A stretch of 41,349 nucleotides of DNA from Comamonadaceae bacterium. Lineage in GTDB: Bacteria; Pseudomonadota; Gammaproteobacteria; Burkholderiales; Burkholderiaceae_C. Positions within the stretch are counted from its first letter, which is position 1. Each line of letters begins with the position of its first letter. Of this stretch, positions 4,742 through 13,311 are shown in pieces. The stretch is from the NCBI GenBank assembly GCA_013823485.1, contig PNMF01000013.1, forward strand, positions 1-41,349, in the 5' to 3' direction. Under the pieces are notes generated by a model. That model was not told the origin of the DNA, searched no databases, and worked only from the letters and a program-made list of their open reading frames with translations. The position numbers and the translations under genes were made by a program.

Positions 4742-5197
4742 TCAGCGCAGCGGTCCCTGGCCGCACAGCACCGGCAGGTAGTCCATCAGCCACTTGATCT
4801 GGCTGGCGTCCGACCAGTTCGCACCGGCAATGACGGTCGTCTCGGGTGCCGACGCACTGTCTTCCTGCCGCACGCTGACGGTGTGCATTCCGGTTTCGGT
4901 GTCTGCTTCGACCTTCATCGTTGCCGACCACCCCGGGCCTGGCTTCGACAACTCGACAGACCGGTTGTCCAGCCCTCTCGACTCGACCCGCAGCCGACAG
5001 GTCTCATCGAGCCGGTACTGCCAGCGGTGCTCCAGATAGCGGTGCTCGCCGATCTGGTTCAGGGCCAGGTGCACTTGCGTGCGGTCCATCCCGAAGGCCA
5101 GTGCCAGCGGTTCGTCCTGGCTCGGATAACCGTCTGCACAACCCGTCAGGACCATCACCAGGGCGCAGGCTGCCGCTGCGGAAAAAGCCCGGCTCAT
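4742..5197 (-). CDS. Putative lipoprotein, function unknown
   Basis: A 151-residue protein with a lipoprotein signal: a short basic start, a hydrophobic stretch and the lipobox LTGC (Cys about residue 20). The mature part includes FGMDRTQVHLALNQIGEHRY and cysteines at TCRLRV and VLCGQ that could pair in the periplasm. I do not recognise a domain. Its ATG overlaps the stop of the upstream CNNM/CBS transporter gene by 4 bases (ATGA), so translation is probably coupled. It is convergent with yraN, 21 bases away. Confidence 0.75.
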   Translation of the reverse strand: MSRAFSAAAACALVMVLTGCADGYPSQDEPLALAFGMDRTQVHLALNQIGEHRYLEHRWQYRLDETCRLRVESRGLDNRSVELSKPGPGWSATMKVEADTETGMHTVSVRQEDSASAPETTVIAGANWSDASQIKWLMDYLPVLCGQGPLR

Positions 5198-6519
5198 GTC
5201 GGGTGCTGCACCTCGTCGGTGCCTTCAATCGCGTCCTGCGGCAGGCGCGTGGCCAGCACCTTGTCGATGGAGCGGCCGTCCATGTCGACGATCTCCAGTT
5301 TCCAGCCTTCCCAGATCACGGTGTCGGTGACTTTGGGCAGGCGCCCGGTCAGCAGCATCATCATGCCGCTGAGGGTGTGGTAGCGCCCGCGCTCTTCATC
5401 GGGCACGGCGTCCAGGGCGAGCCTGTCCTTCAGCTCGGGTACCGGGATGTGGCCATCGAGCAGCCAGCTGCCGTCGTCCCGCTGCATGGCCCAGGAGGTT
5501 TCCGGATCGCGCGGGCTGAACTCGCCGGTGATGGCCTCGATCAGGTCCTGCAGCGTCACGATGCCCTGCACCTCGCCGTACTCGTCGATCACGAACGCCA
5601 TGTGCACGTCGGACTGGCGGAAGTTGTCCAGCAACTCCATGCCGGTGATGGTCTCGGGCACGTACAGCGGTTCCTGCAGCGGCTGCCGGGTCAGCTCCCG
5701 CGACTCGCCCCTCAGCGCCTGGGTCATCCACTTGCGGGCGTTCACCACACCCACCACATCGCTCATGCTGCCGCGCACCACCGGGAAACGGGCGTGGTCG
5801 GAAGCCTCGACACGGGCCATGTTCACCTCGAAGTCCTGCTCCAGGTCGAGCACCACCACGGCGCTGCGCGGCACCATCAGGGAGCCGATCTGGCGGTCGT
5901 CCAGGCGGAACACATTGCGCACCATGGTGTGCTCGTGCGACTCGATCACGCCGGCCGTGGTGCCTTCCGCGAGCATGGCGTGGATCTCTTCCTCGGTCAC
6001 TGCATTGGCGCCCGAGTCCTTCACGCCCAGCAGCTTGAGCAGCGCCTGGGTGGAGACCGACAGCAGCAGCACGAACGGCTTGGTGGCAATGGCCAGCATG
6101 TCGATCGGTCGGGCCACCAGCCTTGCCAGGGTTTCCGGGTGCGACTGGCCGATGCGCTTGGGCACCAGCTCGCCCACCACGATCGAGAAGTAGGTGATCA
6201 GCACCACCACGAGGCCAGTGGCCAAGTACTGGTGATAGGGGTCGGGGACGCCCATGCTGGTCAGCCAGAGGGCCAGCGGTGCGGCCAGGGCCGCCTCGCC
6301 CACGATGCCGTTGAGCACGCCGATGGAGGTGATGCCGATCTGGATGGTGGAGAGAAACCGCGTCGGGTCCTCCCCGAGCTTGATGGCGGCGGCCGCCGAC
6401 CGGTCTCCTTCATCAACCCGTTTCTGGAGCCGGGCCTTGCGGGCCGAGACCAGGGCCAGTTCCGACATGGCGAACAGGCCGTTGAGGAGGATGAGTGCAA
6501 AAAGTATGGCTATTTCCAT
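5194..6519 (-). CDS. Hemolysin C/CorC-like CNNM-CBS membrane transporter
   Basis: A 441-residue protein with the order CNNM/DUF21 membrane domain (residues 1-180, four hydrophobic segments, opening MEIAILFALILLNGLFAMSE), a CBS-domain pair (about 200-330; VPRSAVVVLDLEQDFE, FVIDEYGEVQGIVTLQDLIE) and a C-terminal CorC_HlyC domain (about 345-430; SWLLDGHIPVPELKDRL). The family is linked to Mg2+/Co2+ efflux or Na+/Mg2+ exchange; the 'hemolysin' label is historical. The ATG at 6519 gives the standard family N-terminus. It ends in a 4-base overlap with the lipoprotein gene and lies 38 bases downstream of uppP, suggesting one transcript. Confidence 0.92.
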   Translation of the reverse strand: MEIAILFALILLNGLFAMSELALVSARKARLQKRVDEGDRSAAAAIKLGEDPTRFLSTIQIGITSIGVLNGIVGEAALAAPLALWLTSMGVPDPYHQYLATGLVVVLITYFSIVVGELVPKRIGQSHPETLARLVARPIDMLAIATKPFVLLLSVSTQALLKLLGVKDSGANAVTEEEIHAMLAEGTTAGVIESHEHTMVRNVFRLDDRQIGSLMVPRSAVVVLDLEQDFEVNMARVEASDHARFPVVRGSMSDVVGVVNARKWMTQALRGESRELTRQPLQEPLYVPETITGMELLDNFRQSDVHMAFVIDEYGEVQGIVTLQDLIEAITGEFSPRDPETSWAMQRDDGSWLLDGHIPVPELKDRLALDAVPDEERGRYHTLSGMMMLLTGRLPKVTDTVIWEGWKLEIVDMDGRSIDKVLATRLPQDAIEGTDEVQHPT

Positions 6520-6557: not shown

Positions 6558-7397
6558 TCAGAGAGGGCTCAGATACCCGGTCGACAGCAGTCCGAAGACG
6601 ACGAGGCCGAGCGCCACTCGGTACCAGACGAAGGGCATGTAGCCGCGCGTGGAGACCAGCCGCATGAACCAGACGATGACGGCATAGCCCACCACGAAGG
6701 CCACCAGCGTGGCCAGTGCGGTGGGGCCGGCGCCCAGCGGAATGCCCTGGTCGCGGCTGCTCCAGAGCTGGTAGAAGCCGGATGCGGTCACGGCGGGTAT
6801 GGCGAGCAGGAATGAGAAGCGTGCCGCTGCCTCGCGCGTGTAGCCCAGCAGCAGTCCCGCCGTGATGGTGCCGCCCGAGCGGGACACTCCCGGAATGAGC
6901 GCCAGGGCCTGGGCTGCCCCGAACAGCAACCCGTGTGTCCAGGTCAGCTGGTCCAGCTGCCGCGCCCGCCGCCCGAAGCGATCGGCCAGTCCCAGGAACA
7001 GCCCGAACACGATCAGCATGAACGCCGTGATGTACAGGTGCCGCAAGTGGCCTTCGATGGCGTCCTGGAACAGCAGGCCCAGCACCGCGATCGGCAGGGT
7101 GCCCAGCAGGATCAGCCAGCCCATGCGCGCATCGGGATCGGAGCGTGCCGATGGTTGCAGGATGCTTCGCCACCAGGCCATAAGGATCTGCCGGATCTCT
7201 CGGCGGAAGTAGATCAGCACGGCCGCTTCGGTGCCCAGCTGGGTGATGGCCGTGAACGCCGCGCCCGGGTCGCCCCCCGAAGGCAGCAGCGGGCCGATGA
7301 CCCGCAGGTGCGCACTGGACGACACCGGCAGGAACTCGGTAAGACCCTGGATCAGACCCAGGAAGGCAGCTTCGGCCCAGAGCACTGGGTCAGACAT
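6558..7397 (-). CDS. uppP: Undecaprenyl-diphosphatase
   Basis: UppP (BacA) dephosphorylates undecaprenyl diphosphate so that the lipid carrier for peptidoglycan and other wall polymers is recycled. The 279-residue polytopic protein has both signature regions: [14 protein letters not shown] (residues about 19-32) with the catalytic-site glutamate and serines, and [20 protein letters not shown] (about 165-185) with the conserved arginine. Length is normal for the family. It starts [18 protein letters not shown] at 7397 and precedes the CNNM/CBS gene on the same strand. A 192-base gap separates it from the small secreted protein gene upstream. Confidence 0.95.
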
Positions 7398-7589
7398 GGC
7401 GGACAGTCCTGATGGTTGCGGTCGGATCGAGTTGTTCGGGGGCGCAGTTCATGGCGATGGTCGTGCAGATCGGTCGTGCGCAAAGCCGGTTGGCCGCTGG
7501 CGTTGACCGGCGCAATGCTTGGCAAGGGAGTGGTGGCGACGCTGCGAGGCAGGCGTCAGGGCCGGGGCTGATGCCGCCCGGCCGAGGTG
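7398..7589. other. Intergenic gap of 192 bases, nothing recognised
   Basis: This is the longest non-coding stretch in the window. It separates uppP from the upstream minus-strand metal-locus genes. It is GC-rich, with no clear hairpin plus T-run terminator and no convincing -35/-10 pair. A plus-strand open frame crosses it and continues antisense to the next gene, but it has no family signature and I regard it as non-coding. Confidence 0.4.
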
Positions 7590-7937
7590 TCAGGCCTGTG
7601 GCGGGCGCTGAAGTCCCTCGAGCGAAGGCGAGGGCGAATGGGGGTTCAGGTGCGGCGGAGTGCGGCCCCAGGCGCTTCGGGCTGCGAGGCCCAGGGGCCA
7701 GGGGTCGAGCCCGTCCGGCAGGTCGGGAATCTCGTCCAGCAGGTCATGTTCGCGATCGAGCACCGACGCGTCCGCCACGGATTCGGCCCATCCATAGGCT
7801 GAAGTTGCGCGTGCGTCGTCGGGCATCGGCTCCGACACCACCGCCGTCTGCCCATGGTTCAACGGCTGCTGGAGCGCACCGATCCCCAGACTGCAGAAAA
7901 ACTGCAGGGCGAGAACGGCAATGATCCAGTGGCGCAT
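7590..7937 (-). CDS. Small secreted protein, possibly CzcI-like
   Basis: A 115-residue product starting MRHWIIAVLALQFFCSLGIG, a good signal peptide or N-terminal anchor. The rest is acidic in the middle (LDREHDLLDEIPDLPDGLD) and Pro/Ser-rich at the end, finishing SLEGLQRPPQA. That tail resembles the tail of the His-rich protein at 10779-11171 (ALARLERPPQT) and loosely recalls the RP-containing ends of CzcI-type small metal-resistance proteins. There is no His-rich stretch. It is the last gene of the minus-strand series that begins with the CsoR/RcnR-like regulator. The ATG at 7937 was preferred over an adjacent GTG at 7940. Confidence 0.6.
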   Translation of the reverse strand: MRHWIIAVLALQFFCSLGIGALQQPLNHGQTAVVSEPMPDDARATSAYGWAESVADASVLDREHDLLDEIPDLPDGLDPWPLGLAARSAWGRTPPHLNPHSPSPSLEGLQRPPQA

Positions 7938-8008
7938 CACAGGGCAGGATTATCGGGGTTGCCGTCCGGCACACCGGCTGACCGGGCATTCCACCCTTGG
8001 CCAGGACA

Positions 8009-8929
8009 CTATTCGCGCTCGATTTCCAGATACACCCGGCTGGCGTTACCGGGGTGGAGTTCGGCCGCGTTGTGAAGGGTCTCGAAGGGCTTCATGTCGA
8101 ACGAGCGGACCGCCACCCCGATGTCCTGCATCTGTCCCACGGCATCCTTCATGTGGGCGCGAAGCGATTGCAGATAGTCGCGGGTCTGGCGCTGTGCGGT
8201 GGGCAGATCGGTCACCCGCCCGTGCCCCGGGACCAGCCACTTCGGCTTCAGTGTTTCCAGGACGCCGAAGGTTTCCAGCCACTGCCGTGTGTTGCTGACC
8301 GGCAGCACCGAGAGCAGGCGGTCGACATAGACGACGTCTCCGGTGAAGACCACATCGCGGTCGGGTATCCAGACCAGCCAGTCGCCCGGCGTGTGTGCCC
8401 CGCCTCGGTGGCGCAATTCGAAGCCGAGGCCGCCCAGCTCGAGCCGCGAGTCCGGGGTGGACACCAGCCGGGCTGGATACACCGGCCGAGTTTCTGCAAA
8501 CCGGGGCCCCAGCAGGCTACCGAGCGCCTGCATCTGGTCACCGGACCGGGCCTGCATGTCCGGCACCGCGCTGGCGTGAGCGATCAGTTCGGCCCCGCCG
8601 GCCCGGAAGAAGCCGTTGCCCAGCCACCGGTGGTCCTGTCCGCCGGTGTTGATCACCCAGCGGACGGGTTGATCGGTGACCCGTCGCGCGGCTGCGGCGA
8701 TGTCCCGAGCACTCAGGAAGGTGGCGCCGCTGTCGATCAGCACCGCCCCGCCCGGGGTGACGACCAGGCCGATGTTGGCGTTGAGGCCTTCATTCGCCTG
8801 GGTGCGTCCACCCAGTTCGCCGGTGTGGACATAAACGCCGTCGGTCACCTTCTCGAACTGGACCTCTGCAGCACTCACGGCAGAGGCCAGCAGGCCAATG
8901 AGGAAGAGGGCCAGAAACCTTGAAGTCAT
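8009..8929 (-). CDS. Exported MBL-fold metallo-hydrolase-like protein
   Basis: A 306-residue protein with a signal peptide (MTSRFLALFLIGLLASAVSA) and a metallo-beta-lactamase fold. Conserved elements are GGAVLIDSGAT, HTPGDWLVWIPDRDVVFTGD and WLVPGHGRVTDL. The first metal motif, normally NTHxHxDH, reads INTGGQDHRWLGN: two histidines are missing and it is one residue shorter, leaving only the DH pair. It therefore may bind a single metal or have another role. It resembles the exported MBL proteins associated with quinoprotein or sulfur-oxidation genes, but no such genes are nearby. It lies 16 bases after the YqaA-like gene. Confidence 0.82.
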   Translation of the reverse strand: MTSRFLALFLIGLLASAVSAAEVQFEKVTDGVYVHTGELGGRTQANEGLNANIGLVVTPGGAVLIDSGATFLSARDIAAAARRVTDQPVRWVINTGGQDHRWLGNGFFRAGGAELIAHASAVPDMQARSGDQMQALGSLLGPRFAETRPVYPARLVSTPDSRLELGGLGFELRHRGGAHTPGDWLVWIPDRDVVFTGDVVYVDRLLSVLPVSNTRQWLETFGVLETLKPKWLVPGHGRVTDLPTAQRQTRDYLQSLRAHMKDAVGQMQDIGVAVRSFDMKPFETLHNAAELHPGNASRVYLEIERE

Positions 8930-8945
8930 GCGTATCCCTTGTTGA

Positions 8946-9383
8946 TCAGCCCAAGCCGAGCGTGATGGCGGCGAGTATCAGGTAGCGCCCGACCTTGGCC
9001 AGGGTCACCAGCACCAGAAATACCGGAAAGGGCTCGCGCATCACGCCAGCCACGACCGTCAGGGGATCGCCGATGACGGGCGCCCAGCTCAGCAGCAGAC
9101 TCCACTTCCCGTACCGGCTGTACCAAGCCTGCGCATGCGCCAGCGAAGCAGCCTTGACCGGGAACCAAGGCTTCTCCTTGAAATGTTCGATCCACCGTCC
9201 CAGCACCCAGTTGACGACGGATCCCAGCACGTTGCCGACACTGGCGACCAGAATCAGCATCTCCGCCGGCTGATTTCCGGTCAGCAAGAGCGCGACCAGA
9301 ACCGCCTCGGAGGCGGTGGGCAGCAGCGTTGCCGCCACGAAGGCACTCAGGAACAGACCGCTGTACGCGCCCAGATCTGTCAT
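8946..9383 (-). CDS. YqaA/DedA-like SNARE-associated membrane protein
   Basis: A 145-residue membrane protein of the YqaA branch of the DedA (VTT/SNARE-associated) superfamily. It opens with hydrophobic sequence AFVAATLLPTASEAVLVALL, contains the family pattern GNVLGSVVNWVLGRW, and has LLLSWAPVIGDPLTVVAGVMR in the second half. Relatives are implicated in lipid or ion transport across the inner membrane; the substrate here is unknown. The ATG at 9383 is 11 bases beyond the EamA stop; an in-frame TTG at 9398 would overlap that stop by 4 bases (TTGA) and is a plausible alternative. Confidence 0.85.
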   Translation of the reverse strand: MTDLGAYSGLFLSAFVAATLLPTASEAVLVALLLTGNQPAEMLILVASVGNVLGSVVNWVLGRWIEHFKEKPWFPVKAASLAHAQAWYSRYGKWSLLLSWAPVIGDPLTVVAGVMREPFPVFLVLVTLAKVGRYLILAAITLGLG

Positions 9384-9394
9384 GTCCACAAGGC

Positions 9395-10438
9395 TCAATG
9401 GACATGCCTGTGGTGGACATCAGGGAAATGGGGGTGCCTGTGTGTGATCGGCTGGTGCTTGTGCACATGCGCATGAGGCTCCTGGCCATCCCATTCGCCG
9501 TCATGCTCGTGTTGATGGTGCTCATCATGGACGTGGGCGTGGCTGTGTTCCAGAGGTTCATGGGTGTGTTCATGCTCATGGCGCTCGGTCAGATGCAGCC
9601 AGACGCCCCAAGCCATCAGACCGCATGCCAGCCAGAAGCCAGACCCGACAGGCTCCTCCAGCCAGATCACTGAAACAAACGCACCCATGAAAGGAGCGAC
9701 GGAGAAATATGCTCCGGTCCTTGCGGTCCCCAGCCCGCGCAGAGCGAGTACAAAAAGCACCAGGCTGATGCCATAGCCCAGAAAGCCCACGGCCATGGCC
9801 CCCAGCGTGACCGACATTGAGAAGTGATGTTGGCCCATCGCCAGGCCCAACGCCACATTCACATATCCAGCCACCAGGCCTTTGGTTCCCGCAATGAACA
9901 ATGCATCCGACGCGGAGACTTTGCGCGTCAGGTTGTTGTCCAGTGCCCAGCAGAGGCAGGCCAGCACGATCAGCAGTGAAGCCCAGTTGAGGCCACCCTG
10001 GGCGGACCCTGCGCTCTGCCAGGACAGGATGACGCCGCCTGCCACGATCGCCAGCATGCCGAGCACGATGCGGCGATCGGCGTTTTCCTTGAAAGCCACC
10101 CAGGCCAGTACCGCCGTCAGCACCCCCTCCAGATTGAGAAGCAGCGATGCAGTTGATGCGGTCGTCTGTTGCAGACCCAGCAGCAAGGCGACCGGGCCCA
10201 GGATGCCCCCGAAGGCGATCGCGCCAGCCAGCCAGGGCCACTCGCTGCGGGTCAAGCCCGAGGGCTCCCAGCCGCGATCCCGCACGATCCTGAGGGTCAA
10301 GAGGCCGATGCCGCTGCCGAGGTAGAGCAGGCCCCCGAGCATGACCGGCGACACCGATCCCAGCAGCATCTTGGCCAGGGGCGTGCTCAGCCCGAAGAGA
10401 GCCGCAGCACCGAGAGCGAATCCGACACTGGCGTTCAT
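9395..10438 (-). CDS. EamA/DMT-family permease with His-rich tail, possible metal exporter
   Basis: A 347-residue drug/metabolite-transporter-type permease with about ten membrane segments in two EamA repeats (first repeat with GPVALLLGLQQTTASTASLL; second with VAPFMGAFVSVIWLEEPVG). After the last helix comes a cytosolic tail of about 63 residues containing 23 histidines (for example THEPLEHSHAHVHDEHHQHE). Such tails bind Ni, Co or Zn, and CnrT-type nickel exporters belong to the same superfamily. The start codon overlaps the stop of the upstream CsoR/RcnR-family regulator by 4 bases (ATGA), so the sensor and permease are cotranslated. The direction of transport and the metal are inferred. 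Confidence 0.87.
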   Translation of the reverse strand: MNASVGFALGAAALFGLSTPLAKMLLGSVSPVMLGGLLYLGSGIGLLTLRIVRDRGWEPSGLTRSEWPWLAGAIAFGGILGPVALLLGLQQTTASTASLLLNLEGVLTAVLAWVAFKENADRRIVLGMLAIVAGGVILSWQSAGSAQGGLNWASLLIVLACLCWALDNNLTRKVSASDALFIAGTKGLVAGYVNVALGLAMGQHHFSMSVTLGAMAVGFLGYGISLVLFVLALRGLGTARTGAYFSVAPFMGAFVSVIWLEEPVGSGFWLACGLMAWGVWLHLTERHEHEHTHEPLEHSHAHVHDEHHQHEHDGEWDGQEPHAHVHKHQPITHRHPHFPDVHHRHVH

Positions 10439-10704
10439 AGGTACTTGGTGATTTCGCGGAACTCTTCCAGCGAACCTGGCTGCGGTTGGCCCTTGGTGGC
10501 CACCATGTGACTCAGGCAATGGTCGAGATGGTCCTGAATCAGCGTTCGTTTTGCCTGGGTGATGGCCTTCTCCACCGCTTGCAGCTGCTGCACCACGTCC
10601 ATGCAGGGCTTGCCTTGTTCGAGCATCGCCAGCACGCTGCTCAGGTGGCCCCCGGCTCGACGCAGCCGTTTGATCACGGCGGGATGTGTTTCGTGAACGT
10701 GCAT
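10435..10704 (-). CDS. CsoR/RcnR-family metal-sensing repressor, nickel-sensor-like ligand set
   Basis: An 89-residue all-helical repressor of the CsoR/RcnR/FrmR family (HPAVIKRLRRAGGHLSSVLA then QLQAVEKAITQAKRTLIQDH). The fingerprint positions are H2, C34, H59 and C63. Their spacing (32, 25 and 4 residues) equals that of RcnR (H3, C35, H60, H64) and of cyanobacterial InrS (H21, C53, H78, C82). The His-Cys-His-Cys set matches the nickel sensor InrS; RcnR has His last, CsoR lacks the first His, FrmR has Glu. Such proteins leave DNA when metal binds. The ATG at 10704 lies next to a TTGATCAA palindrome and 75 bases from the divergent His-rich gene. Confidence 0.9.
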   Translation of the reverse strand: MHVHETHPAVIKRLRRAGGHLSSVLAMLEQGKPCMDVVQQLQAVEKAITQAKRTLIQDHLDHCLSHMVATKGQPQPGSLEEFREITKYL

Positions 10705-10716
10705 GTTGATCAATCT

Positions 10717-10752
10717 GGTTACCGGAATGGATCCTCCCCCGGAGGTTACAAT
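10717..10752. promoter_or_regulatory. Candidate operator between the divergent metal genes
   Basis: The 74-base region between the repressor gene (minus) and the His-rich protein gene (plus) contains CCTCCCCCGGAGG at 10733-10745: two 5-base inverted arms around a C-tract. It is bracketed by GGTTAC direct repeats at 10717-10722 and 10744-10749. TACAAT at 10747-10752 is a good -10 element for the plus-strand genes. CsoR/RcnR-family operators characteristically contain G/C tracts flanked by inverted sequence, so this is the likely binding site. This is inference from pattern and position. Confidence 0.5.
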
Positions 10753-10778
10753 GAAAGCGCTCTTGCAACCCACTGAAG

Positions 10779-11171
10779 ATGACAGCCATCGATCGCCATC
10801 ACCCGTTTCTTGCTCCTGCTGCCACGGCCGGGAAATGGATGGCCATCGTGGTCGCATTGATCTTGTTGGCGGGAGCCATGATCACGCCATGGGGGCTGGC
10901 CAAGTCGCACGGATCGGCTGCGATGTCGGCCTTGCACCACGGCGAGTCCTTGGACTCGATTGAGGGGCACGGGCACAGCCACGAGGATGACCTGCCGGCA
11001 TCGGTCGGCATCCATGTCCATCATGTGGGCGATCATTCGCACGACCACGCCCACGCGCTGCCCCTGGGCTTGCCAGGGTTGACCGAAGCCGCAGCCGAGT
11101 GGCCCTCGGGCCCCGATCACGCCGGTCCCTTGCCAGCGCTTGCGCGCCTGGAACGTCCGCCGCAAACCTGA
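10779..11171 (+). CDS. His-rich membrane-anchored protein of the metal locus
   Basis: A 130-residue protein with one membrane helix (about residues 19-41, KWMAIVVALILLAGAM) and a hydrophilic region with 14 histidines, in clusters such as EGHGHSHED, GIHVHHVG and DHSHDHAHAL. It probably displays a metal-binding domain in the periplasm. The C-terminus ends ALARLERPPQT, similar to the end of the small secreted protein at 7590-7937. Upstream lie the candidate operator and a TACAAT -10. The ribosome-binding site before the ATG at 10779 is weak; a short frame from ATG 10751, which has a better GGAGG, lacks any domain and was rejected. Confidence 0.72.
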   Translation: MTAIDRHHPFLAPAATAGKWMAIVVALILLAGAMITPWGLAKSHGSAAMSALHHGESLDSIEGHGHSHEDDLPASVGIHVHHVGDHSHDHAHALPLGLPGLTEAAAEWPSGPDHAGPLPALARLERPPQT

Positions 11172-11242
11172 CCGCTGGTCATCACCATCGGTTCGGGCTG
11201 CCACGGCGGCCCTGGGCTTTCACTTTCCTGTACGGAGTTTTC

Positions 11243-11980
11243 ATGCTCAGCTTTTCTCACGAGCGGCTTCAGGCTGCGCCCTGGGCGCGACCTGGTCCCG
11301 CTGCCACCACCTTGCTGGTCCTGGCGTTCCTTCTGTTCTTCTCCGCCGAGGCCTTTGCCCACGCCGTCACGCAGGGTGACAAGGGGTACATCCAGGAGAT
11401 ATCCGGTGTGCATCTGCTGCCCTTCACCTACCTGGGCGCCAAGCACATGGCCACGGGCTACGACCACATCCTGTTCCTCTTCGGGGTGATCTTCTTCCTC
11501 TACAAGCTGAAGGACATTGCGGTCTACGTCAGCCTGTTCGCGATCGGTCACTCCACCACCATGGTGCTGGGGGTCTACTACAACATCGGGATCAACAGTT
11601 ACCTGATCGACGCCGTCATCGGCTTCTCGGTGGTCTACAAGGCCCTGGACAACATCGGTGCTTTCCAGCGCTGGTTCGGCGTTCAGCCGAACACCAAAGT
11701 CGCGACCCTGATCTTTGGCCTGATCCACGGCTTCGGTCTGGCCACCAAGATTCAGGAGTACGAGATCTCGCGTGATGGCCTGGTGGCCAACCTGCTGGCG
11801 TTCAACGTCGGCGTGGAAATCGGGCAGCTGCTGGCTCTGTCCGTGATCCTGATTGGCATCAGCTTCTGGCGCCGCACCGCAGGCTTTGCGCGTTACGCCT
11901 ACAGCGCCAACGTGGTCATGATGTCCGCAGGATTCATCCTCGTGGGCATGCAACTGACCGGCTATATCGTCTCCCAATGA
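11243..11980 (+). CDS. HupE/UreJ-like permease
   Basis: A 245-residue membrane protein with an N-terminal signal-like helix and about six further helices. The HupE/UreJ motif H-x5-D-H is present as KHMATGYDHILFLFG, followed by FAIGHSTTMVLG and FGLIHGFGLATKI, which supply the second set of conserved histidines. HupE/UreJ proteins are nickel/cobalt permeases associated with hydrogenase or urease; neither enzyme is encoded here, so the substrate is inferred from the neighbouring metal sensor. The ATG at 11243 is preceded by CGGAG at a good distance. It follows the His-rich gene by 71 bases. Confidence 0.86.
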   Translation: MLSFSHERLQAAPWARPGPAATTLLVLAFLLFFSAEAFAHAVTQGDKGYIQEISGVHLLPFTYLGAKHMATGYDHILFLFGVIFFLYKLKDIAVYVSLFAIGHSTTMVLGVYYNIGINSYLIDAVIGFSVVYKALDNIGAFQRWFGVQPNTKVATLIFGLIHGFGLATKIQEYEISRDGLVANLLAFNVGVEIGQLLALSVILIGISFWRRTAGFARYAYSANVVMMSAGFILVGMQLTGYIVSQ

Positions 11981-11997
11981 ATTCGAGAGTGAACACC

Positions 11998-12666
11998 ATG
12001 TACAACAGCGACATTCCCTCCCGCGCCGAACTGCCTTCGACCCGGCAGCTCATCCGTTCCACCATCATCGCTGCGGTCTCTGCCGTGGTCCTGCTCTACA
12101 CCGTAGTTCTCCCGTCCGAGTACGGTGTGGACCCCACCGGTATCGGCCGGGCGCTGGGCCTGACCGACATGGGCGAGATCAAGACCCGCCTGGCGGCCGA
12201 AGCGGCGGCGGACGCGGCAGCGTCCTCAGCCGGTCCTGCGCCAACGTCAACGCCAGCCACGCAAGCGACTCCGCAGACCGGTGGCAGCAGTGTTGCAGCC
12301 GCTCCTGCCGCGCCGTCGCCAACCGATTCATCGCCGAACAACCAGGGTGCCTCGTGGCGTGACGAGGTCTCGTTCACGCTGACCCCCGGGCAGGGCGTCG
12401 AGATCAAGCTGGTGATGAAGGAAGGCGAGAAGGCCGAATACGCCTGGACCGTCCAGGGCGGGGTCGTGAACTTCGACACCCACGCAGACGCCCCTGGACG
12501 TTCCATCAGCTACGAGAAAGGTCGGGCGGTGCCGGAGGATGAGGGCGAGCTGGTGGCGGCGTTCACCGGCAACCACGGCTGGTTCTGGCGCAACCGTGGC
12601 CAGTCCGACGTCACGGTGGTCCTGAAAACCCGCGGTCAGTACAGCAGCCTCAAACGGGTCATCTGA
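11998..12666 (+). CDS. Transmembrane anchor protein of the HupE/UreJ locus
   Basis: A 222-residue protein with one membrane helix (about residues 20-42, STIIAAVSAVVLLYTVVLP), then DPTGIGRALGLTDMGEIK, an Ala/Pro/Thr-rich linker of about 50 residues and a C-terminal soluble domain (VSFTLTPGQGVEIKLVMKEG... GNHGWFWRNRG) that resembles a periplasmic beta-sandwich. I recall similar proteins beside HupE/UreJ permeases under the name transmembrane anchor protein; no molecular role is established. The ATG at 11998 with GAGAG upstream was chosen. An ATG at 11977 overlapping the permease stop (ATGA) would add 7 residues. Confidence 0.78.
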   Translation: MYNSDIPSRAELPSTRQLIRSTIIAAVSAVVLLYTVVLPSEYGVDPTGIGRALGLTDMGEIKTRLAAEAAADAAASSAGPAPTSTPATQATPQTGGSSVAAAPAAPSPTDSSPNNQGASWRDEVSFTLTPGQGVEIKLVMKEGEKAEYAWTVQGGVVNFDTHADAPGRSISYEKGRAVPEDEGELVAAFTGNHGWFWRNRGQSDVTVVLKTRGQYSSLKRVI

Positions 12667-12677
12667 TCGACCGCCGC

Positions 12678-12683
12678 TATCAT
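12678..12683 (+). promoter_or_regulatory. Candidate -10 element for the diaA-like gene
   Basis: TATCAT lies 7 bases before the ATG at 12691 in the 24-base gap after the metal locus. No purine-rich ribosome-binding site separates it from the ATG. If it is used, transcription would start at or next to the start codon, giving a leaderless mRNA. No good -35 is visible. Confidence 0.35.
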
Positions 12684-12690
12684 CGCCCCC

Positions 12691-13311
12691 ATGCTTTCGC
12701 AGCGCATCCAGCAACAGTTCATCGACAGTGCCGACCTCAAGTACCAGTGCGCGCCCGCGCTGGCGCCCATGGTGGAGTCCGCCATCCACGCGGTGCTGGC
12801 CTGTGTCACCGGCGGCGGCAAGGTGATGGCTTGCGGCAACGGCCCTTCGGCCGCGGCCGCGCAGCTCTTTGCCGCCAGTTTCATGGGCCGCTTCGAGCGC
12901 GAGCGTCCCGAGCTGGCCGCCATGGCGCTGTCGGCCGACTCGGCCGTCATCACGGCCGTGGCCCAGGACTTCGATCCCGGCTGGGTGTACGCCCGCCAGG
13001 TGCGGGCCCTGGGCCAGACCGGCGACGTGCTGCTGGTGGTGGGTGGCGTCGGCCAGGCGGCCAACCTGCTGTCCGCCGTGGAGTCCGCGCATGAGCGCGA
13101 CATGACGGTGGTGGCGCTGACCGGCGCCCGTGGCGGCCGGTTGACCGCCGTCCTGCGCGACACCGATGTGCACATCTGCGTGCCGCACGATCACCCGGCC
13201 CGCATCCTGGAAGTCCACCAGCTGGTGCTGCACTGCGTGTGCGACGGCGTGGACGCCCAGCTGCTGGGCCTGCCCGAAGAATCCCTTCCCGACCCGGAGA
13301 ACCTGACATGA
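12691..13311 (+). CDS. DiaA-like SIS-domain protein with altered sugar-phosphate site
   Basis: A 206-residue single SIS-domain protein. The stretch FMGRFERERPELAAMALS and the end LEVHQLVLHCVCDGVDAQL are close to E. coli DiaA, a tetrameric DnaA-binding initiation factor, and to GmhA phosphoheptose isomerase. Sugar-phosphate-site residues are changed: CGNGGSA is CGNGPSA, the AQHF helix has AQLF, and the Ser/Thr-rich STSGNS loop is GGVGQA. An isomerase role is therefore unlikely. The stop overlaps the dolP-like start by 4 bases (ATGA), the same gene order as diaA-dolP in E. coli. Confidence 0.85.
   Translation: MLSQRIQQQFIDSADLKYQCAPALAPMVESAIHAVLACVTGGGKVMACGNGPSAAAAQLFAASFMGRFERERPELAAMALSADSAVITAVAQDFDPGWVYARQVRALGQTGDVLLVVGGVGQAANLLSAVESAHERDMTVVALTGARGGRLTAVLRDTDVHICVPHDHPARILEVHQLVLHCVCDGVDAQLLGLPEESLPDPENLT

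Follow-up and report, generated by a model that had tools for sequence, protein, structure and literature searches.

A CnrT-containing gene cluster of a Comamonadaceae bacterium as a probable nickel-resistance islet with a HupE/UreJ-2 trio

The locus presented here is a divergent cluster of eight genes at positions 7590..12666 of a 41,349-nucleotide stretch from a Comamonadaceae bacterium (contig PNMF01000013.1; the whole stretch is termed the window), and it resembles several described metal-resistance systems. In Mesorhizobium, the nickel-tolerance operon nreAXY is controlled by the repressor NreA, and it was reported that exchange of C38, H63 or C67 for alanine leaves repression in place while nickel no longer relieves it (PMC12724321). 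The type-1 operator of NreA has the consensus TATCCYCtccrgGRGGATA and sits in the spacer between the -35 and -10 elements (PMC12724321). The cluster IL54_0273-0283 of Sphingobium sp. ba1 is induced by nickel, and its HupE/UreJ-like gene is the most induced of all (PMC5557971). In Cupriavidus metallidurans, a proteome paper counts CnrT among the Ni(II) exporters. A plasmid of a nickel-resistant Acinetobacter lwoffii strain carries rcnR, nreB and a nickel permease gene in a czc cluster, and is likened to the present locus by description only. Further literature was used for the comparison (PMC4235346, PMC8679861, PMC10127716, PMC9195940, PMC11647595, PMC7060636, PMC5067307).

It is quite likely that the cluster in the window is a horizontally acquired nickel-resistance islet, perhaps serving for cobalt as well. 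Judged by its sequence, it would be a CnrT version of the nre/ncr islets, carrying a widespread and little-studied trio that consists of a His-rich protein, a HupE/UreJ-2 permease and a "transmembrane anchor protein". The gene order, the overlaps and the His counts given in the initial annotation (23 in the EamA tail and 14 in the anchored protein) were all reproduced on the window sequence. The features are the following:

7590-7937, minus strand: small secreted protein with C-terminal LQRPPQA, a doubtful member; 71-bp gap to the metallo-beta-lactamase (MBL) gene.
8009-8929, minus strand: MBL-fold secreted protein (PF00753), a SoxH/quinoprotein-relay relative and optional member; 16-bp gap to the YqaA gene.
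8946-9398, minus strand: YqaA/VTT (DedA-superfamily) membrane protein (PF09335), placed by the tree in a plasmid/metal-cluster clade.
9395-10438, minus strand: probable CnrT-type EamA/DMT exporter, by identity to CnrT, with a His-rich C-terminal tail; 4-bp overlap with the sensor gene.
10435-10704, minus strand: predicted NreA/NcrB-type repressor of the CsoR/RcnR family, 89 aa, by PF02583 and residue match, with pocket C34, H59, H62, C63.
10730-10748, no strand: predicted operator of the sensor, GATCCTCCCCCGGAGGTTA, within the divergent gap, by match to the published NreA operator.
10779-11171, plus strand: small His-rich protein with a single N-terminal hydrophobic segment and an ERPP motif at the C-terminus; similar open reading frames (ORFs) lie directly 5' of HupE in many loci.
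11243-11980, plus strand: HupE/UreJ-2 permease (PF13795); 71-bp gap from the His-rich gene.
11977-12666, plus strand: "transmembrane anchor protein" with a single N-terminal hydrophobic segment, an Ala/Pro-rich linker and a C-terminal domain carrying the motifs DTH and HGWFWRN; 4-bp overlap with HupE.

The gap between the divergent sensor and His-rich genes measures 74 bp. The 4-bp overlap of the YqaA and EamA genes exists only with the TTG start of YqaA, for which ATG at 9383 is the alternative start. Pfam matches were obtained for the sensor (PF02583, E 4e-21), the EamA protein (PF00892, 4.9e-28), YqaA (PF09335 VTT, 2.5e-12), the MBL protein (PF00753, 2.6e-20) and HupE (PF13795 HupE_UreJ_2, 2.9e-54), and no credible family was found in Pfam and NCBIfam for the His-rich, anchor or small secreted protein. 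In family searches with a set of 16 anchor proteins, the best E-value was 0.0062, in two members. Searches of solved structures with HupE and the anchor gave no credible relative (best E 0.013), and a scan of viral contigs found no anchor.

The sensor matches PF02583 at 75.6 bits (cut-off 22.8) and is 60% identical to an annotated NcrB (L007) and 56% identical to an annotated MreA (L008). Its residues C34, H59, H62 and C63 correspond to C38, H63, H66 and C67 of Mesorhizobium NreA, and its DNA-contact set R13, R16, Q40 and K87 corresponds to R17, R20, Q44 and K91, in both cases with a constant offset of four. The pocket residues are kept in 20 to 22 of 22 aligned sensor rows, one of which is an unlike second PF02583 protein from the window's own genome; R13, R16 and Q40 are kept in all 22, and K87 is often Arg. 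This second gene (L002, G000:C14:22070-22303) is without the His/Cys pattern of the islet sensor. The RcnR fingerprint is His-Cys-His-His, and the window sensor departs from it with Cys63 at the fourth position. On sequence grounds, the sensor belongs to the NreA/NcrB clade of the CsoR/RcnR family.

With respect to the metal, it was observed that Pro33 precedes the first pocket Cys, as in the nickel sensor InrS, in which Cys53, His78 and Cys82 are required for nickel while His21 is dispensable. The Tyr that marks the copper sensor CsoR at this A position is not present in the window sensor. That the sensor answers mainly to copper, and that the cluster serves copper homeostasis, is very unlikely: C34-H59-C63 is compatible with the pocket of CsoR as well, the sensor has its best PDB match in CsoR 2hh7, and copper genes adjoin the module in L003, L004, L210 and L212, yet Pro stands in place of the Tyr, the companions are CnrT, NcrA, NcrC or RcnA, and both NreA and the Sphingobium cluster respond to nickel (PMC12724321; PMC5557971).

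The predicted operator at 10730-10748 is the sole match in the window to the NreA operator at up to 3 mismatches, of which it has 2; it fits TATCCYC-N5-GRGGATA and lies 25 bp from the sensor start codon. Because 1.4 matches are expected by chance in the whole window at 3 mismatches, the match alone is weak, and it is position and recurrence that carry the argument. An operator with at most 3 mismatches occurs within 150 bp upstream of the sensor start in 43 of 49 loci as against 82 of 4900 random 150-bp windows drawn from the same loci (56 loci were entered, 7 of them without a sensor match), though many of the 49 are closely related and hence do not make 49 independent cases. The right half-site of the predicted operator merges with TACAAT, a hexamer that resembles a -10 element for the trio arm.

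The EamA protein is 63.2% identical to CnrT of C. metallidurans pMOL28 over query residues 18-347, tail included, in a comparison with plasmid records. This tail starts at residue 284 and has 23 His in 64 residues; since the alignment extends through it, the His-rich tail is a trait of the family. Most likely, the EamA protein is a CnrT-type Ni(II) exporter, and CnrT would be one of several exchangeable exporters. An MFS exporter of the NreB/NcrA type, by which nre/ncr operons are recognized, was not found near the window HupE, where CnrT stands instead. Sensor and CnrT genes facing the trio were met in a Curvibacter metagenome-assembled genome (MAG; L024), a Hydrogenophaga MAG (L025) and a MAG labelled Emticicia (L027, whose contig stops inside HupE), and these are the only such arrangements among 80 CnrT-like loci. 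One further locus among the 80 has a HupE gene (L076), with HupE, anchor and CnrT on one strand. On plasmid pOS401 (L003, 8821-9195), a CnrT remnant of 124 codons, annotated as hypothetical, lies beside the sensor and trio. The initial annotation had described a metal-responsive cluster in which a HupE-type permease accompanies a CsoR/RcnR sensor and a CnrT-like exporter; this description holds, and the metal is most likely nickel, given the sensor residues, the 63% identity to CnrT and the operator (PMC12724321; PMC5557971).

Classical HupE is an uptake permease, which is also how HupE is cited in papers, and its motif is HX5DH. The window HupE matches PF13795 instead of PF04955, which we take to be the classical HupE family; the HX5DH motif is present, and none of H40, H68, D74, H75 and H103 varies across the 54 aligned rows. 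His40 directly follows a likely signal peptide (read by eye as ending in AFA), and the spacing of H68, H75 and H103, 7 and 28 residues, is that of His194, His201 and His229 in the HupE domain of an anglerase (PMC12537917). The His-rich protein has 16 His in total, 14 of them after the hydrophobic segment. ERPP or a close variant ends this protein in the 19 rows picked for alignment; in L213, L186 and L200, the His-rich ORF has no RPP, and L179 has RLP. In L076, the linker of the anchor (5197-5922) holds the His-rich stretch HGHDHGHAADGGHSHD, as though the anchor had absorbed the His-rich function.

The neighbourhoods of HupE relatives were compared in 27 same-genus loci, in 28 loci from order and phylum (at least 50% identity) and in 14 plasmid loci hand-picked from listings. 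The anchor lies within 1.2 kb of HupE in 27/27 same-genus and 27/28 order and phylum loci. All 14 plasmid loci carry HupE and anchor; seven of them were found via HupE and seven via the anchor, so that the former alone test its presence. A His-rich ORF accompanies HupE in 20 same-genus, 11 order and phylum and 12 plasmid loci, and a sensor lies within 6 kb in 23, 6 and 10, respectively. An exporter-type gene (MFS, CnrT, RND, NcrC or P-type ATPase) was found within 6 kb in 26, 16 and 11; the plasmid count includes L003 with its CnrT remnant and L214 with pieces of an MFS gene, and the genus count fell from 27 to 26 on leaving out weak CDF matches (~33 bits, His-rich seed). The usual partner in the genus is an MFS exporter (19/27). 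The counts exclude L024, L025, L027, L076 and L163, found via other genes, as well as the partial HupE copies G817:C386 and G804:C42 and low-identity genus copies. L261 and L269 were dropped as duplicates of L004 (same record) and L025, respectively, and L019, cut by the stretch end, is uncounted. The phylum search gave 36 matches, of which 12 at 50% identity or less were left out; five loci below 50% HupE identity, counted apart, have an anchor in one case and an exporter in four. Plasmid records with relatives number 477 for HupE and 399 for the anchor. HupE and anchor form a firm unit; the sensor, the His-rich protein and the exporter frequently accompany it and are often missing outside the genus. 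Such a comparison of neighbourhoods had been set beforehand as a test of the locus, and the genes do co-occur in other genomes.

It is possible, though rather unlikely, that the HupE/UreJ-2 protein is a regulated importer, so that CnrT export would be paired with import to keep nickel enzymes supplied, and the anchor and His-rich proteins would collect nickel. HupE/UreJ proteins are cited as nickel permeases, PF13795 with an "anglerase" domain was modelled as metal uptake, and the four conserved His residues, with the spacing described above, suit this role (PMC12537917). Uptake-type neighbours are found in two plasmid loci: in L209, an Nramp-type metal transporter gene adjoins the anchor, and in L212 (2435-7624), TonB receptor, DUF4198, His-rich, HupE and anchor genes are co-directional, with copper genes adjoining. 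It was reported that DUF4198 binds nickel and is tied to nickel transport, and that its neighbourhoods include TonB receptors. The authors of the Sphingobium study suggested accumulation; that nickel should induce a nickel permease seemed counterintuitive to them (PMC5557971). A precedent for an uptake-type gene is hoxN (NiCoT) on a Streptomyces nickel-resistance plasmid, which lowered nickel tolerance; this gene is nickel-repressed, whereas the Sphingobium HupE gene is nickel-induced. Supply of nickel enzymes is poorly matched by gene content, as neither urease nor hydrogenase is annotated in any of 16 annotated HupE-bearing plasmid stretches (L208 is without annotation). Across 67 same-genus genomes, NiFe hydrogenase occurs in 10 of the 27 with a trio HupE vs 23 of the 40 others (p 0.14), some matches being partial or weak (e.g. 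G801, G778, G827), and urease occurs in 26 of 27 (25 above the cut-off, the G826 match lying below it) vs 36 of 40 (p 0.64). The survey of nickel enzymes gives no support for a supply role, yet it does not prove export. A distant HupE/UreJ-2 subfamily (43-46% identity; e.g. G784, G790, G816) is present in 16 of the 67 genomes and shows the opposite tendency, towards genomes with hydrogenase (11 of the 16, p 0.09). Of the paired import- and export-like permeases named in the initial annotation, the CnrT-like exporter was upheld, while import by HupE was not, since the gene is mostly found with efflux genes and does not track nickel enzymes, though L209 and L212 are of uptake type.

The window YqaA shares 55-72% identity with eight copies from plasmids or modules, and 35-41% with 12 housekeeping YqaA proteins, 11 of them of the genus. 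In a phylogenetic tree, it groups with the eight copies and two from other families, split from the housekeeping clade with support 100/99; the tree labels L288 and L290 as "module" although their stretches hold no HupE. No other same-genus copy of this YqaA was found in 67 genomes at E 1e-25 or better, and G817 (L272) has broken YqaA pieces behind an MFS gene. YqaA stands behind an exporter gene in L187, L213, L286, L287 and L289, and sensor, exporter and YqaA genes, in this order, face HupE and anchor on plasmids of Ancylobacter, Agrobacterium and Pseudomonas. Among the 25 listed YqaA plasmid records (of 254), 9 recur among the 40 listed HupE records (of 477), each with the two genes at most 4 kb apart. 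A link between YqaA and the trio is weakened by L288 and L290, two of five annotated YqaA loci, which are without HupE. On the Rhizobium etli plasmid of L288, the genes for a CDF exporter, an NreA-type sensor and YqaA are co-directional, and the stretch has no HupE. In L025, a DedA-type gene lies 4.6 kb away. It was reported that indium resistance in Rhodanobacter requires a YqaA protein, whose DedA subfamily has no settled function. YqaA recurs in such modules, yet behind exporters other than CnrT.

The zinc motif of MBL-fold hydrolases is HxHxDH. It is absent from the window MBL protein, which has GGQDH instead, as do 12 readable homologous segments. The protein is a full-length relative of quinoprotein-relay metallohydrolases, below the NCBIfam cut-offs. 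In L163, L278 and L285, a relative is encoded at most 8 kb from the module, and L260 has a 38-residue fragment, which makes 4 of 28 genus loci (the 27 above and L163, itself found via the MBL gene). The MBL gene is a genus-level associate and an optional member. For the small secreted gene, two distant relatives were found (L270 and L279; 34-36% identity), each ~6.5 kb from a module, and its product shares a C-terminal RPP with the His-rich family; its membership in the module is doubtful. A kinship of CzcI with the small and His-rich proteins, suggested by a shared C-terminal RP, was rejected, as the alignment is too weak.

The surroundings of the locus bear on its origin. A SIS-BON gene pair is kept with no module gene in the fetched stretch in 11/11 same-genus loci, the nearest (96% SIS identity) included, and some of the module-free genomes (e.g. 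G767, G769) have HupE elsewhere. As the module is missing beside SIS in all of these loci, it looks acquired. The G+C content is 61-64% across 9.0-12.5 kb vs 66-71% on most flanks. A UppP-like gene at 6558-7397 of the window is 34-38% identical to UppP of 4 same-genus genomes; since this neighbour is divergent, the foreign stretch may extend leftwards.

In the scheme proposed for the nickel-resistance islet, the metal, the repression, the control of both arms, the directions of transport and the roles of the partners are all inferred. Without nickel, the NreA-type repressor would occupy the operator in the divergent gap and keep both arms off, and Ni(II) bound at C34/H59/C63 would release it. 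The left arm would then give more sensor and the CnrT-type exporter, which would move Ni(II) from cytoplasm to periplasm, with the YqaA membrane protein as a possible helper. The right arm would supply the His-rich envelope protein, the HupE/UreJ-2 permease and the anchored periplasmic domain. This trio would jointly handle nickel at the inner membrane, and a place on the efflux side, where it would buffer nickel or hand it outward, is somewhat more likely than import.

Several observations weigh against this islet. Relatives of the YqaA, MBL and small genes are found in 0/80 CnrT-like loci at E 1e-4, and the pairing of CnrT with YqaA is therefore seen in the window alone. HupE is without a detected sensor in 22/28 and without an exporter match in 12/28 order and phylum loci. 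To these are added the neighbouring copper genes described above, the uptake-type genes of L209 and L212, the proposal that PF13795 proteins with an extra N-terminal domain serve metal uptake (PMC12537917), the binding of copper and zinc by InrS in vitro, and a scan for consensus promoters over 7300-12800, in which none was found.

The scattered occurrence could also mean that independent resistance cassettes accumulated on mobile DNA without a joint function, the MBL and small secreted genes being bystanders. HupE is missing from the fetched stretch in 76 of the 80 CnrT-like loci, some of which are limited by contig ends, and 8 of 9 MBL loci of relatives have no HupE in the fetched stretch (two lie on 6-7 kb contigs). 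This explanation is nevertheless improbable in view of the HupE-anchor adjacency, the shared operator type and a divergent layout that is kept with different exporters, and of the three plasmids in which sensor, exporter and YqaA face HupE and anchor. The initial annotation had taken all eight genes as one system. For the sensor, His-rich protein, HupE and anchor this is well supported, CnrT is exchangeable and YqaA recurs behind other exporters; the MBL gene is associated at the genus level (4/28), and the small gene has its two distant relatives.

A wider proposal is advanced tentatively and falls somewhat short of probable: the His-rich protein, HupE/UreJ-2 and the HGWFWRN anchor could form an unnamed nickel-handling complex on plasmids of Pseudomonadota, in which a permease of an uptake family acts on the efflux side, or else as a return valve, and cooperates with exchangeable exporters (CnrT, NreB-type MFS, RcnA, RND) and often with a dedicated YqaA, all under one NreA-type switch. 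If the trio works on the efflux side, many HupE/UreJ-2 genes now labelled as uptake genes need other labels; if it imports, a means of keeping an essential metal is built into resistance islets. A presumed family of nickel importers provides the most nickel-induced gene in the published Sphingobium relative, and in the loci read, many plasmid copies have exporter genes next to them. The islet is a compact case, with one predicted operator, two arms, a known exporter type and three partner proteins.

The combination had been thought undescribed, and the exact gene set was indeed not found in the literature searched, outside which most subscription papers lie; a relative with NreB and an RND pump has been described as nickel-induced (PMC5557971). 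This Sphingobium cluster agrees with the window, by description, in an NreA-like sensor divergent from an exporter operon, a small His-rich ORF and a HupE/UreJ-like gene, and differs in having NreB and a CnrCBA-like RND pump, whereas the islet has a CnrT-like exporter and no RND genes (PMC5557971). The Mesorhizobium nreAXY operon shares a repressor of the NreA clade, identical in pocket and DNA-contact residues, and the type-1 operator, but its efflux genes are nreX and nreY, and HupE is not mentioned in the main text of the report (PMC12724321). The cnr determinant of pMOL28 has the CnrT that is 63% identical through the C-terminal tail; unlike the islet, it includes CnrYXH and CnrCBA, with no HupE annotated across 19 kb. 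The ncr islets of enterobacterial plasmids hold an NcrB-type sensor and the HupE-anchor pair on the same stretch, but their exporters are the MFS protein NcrA and NcrC/RcnA, in another gene order and on other strands. Finally, the HupE/UreJ-2 "anglerases" have in common with the window protein a PF13795 permease, a first His after the signal peptide and three equally spaced His residues (PMC12537917). The window HupE has no Ang domain, with 20 residues from His40 to the start of the PF13795 match at 61, and its place may be taken by the anchor and His-rich proteins, which are separate here.

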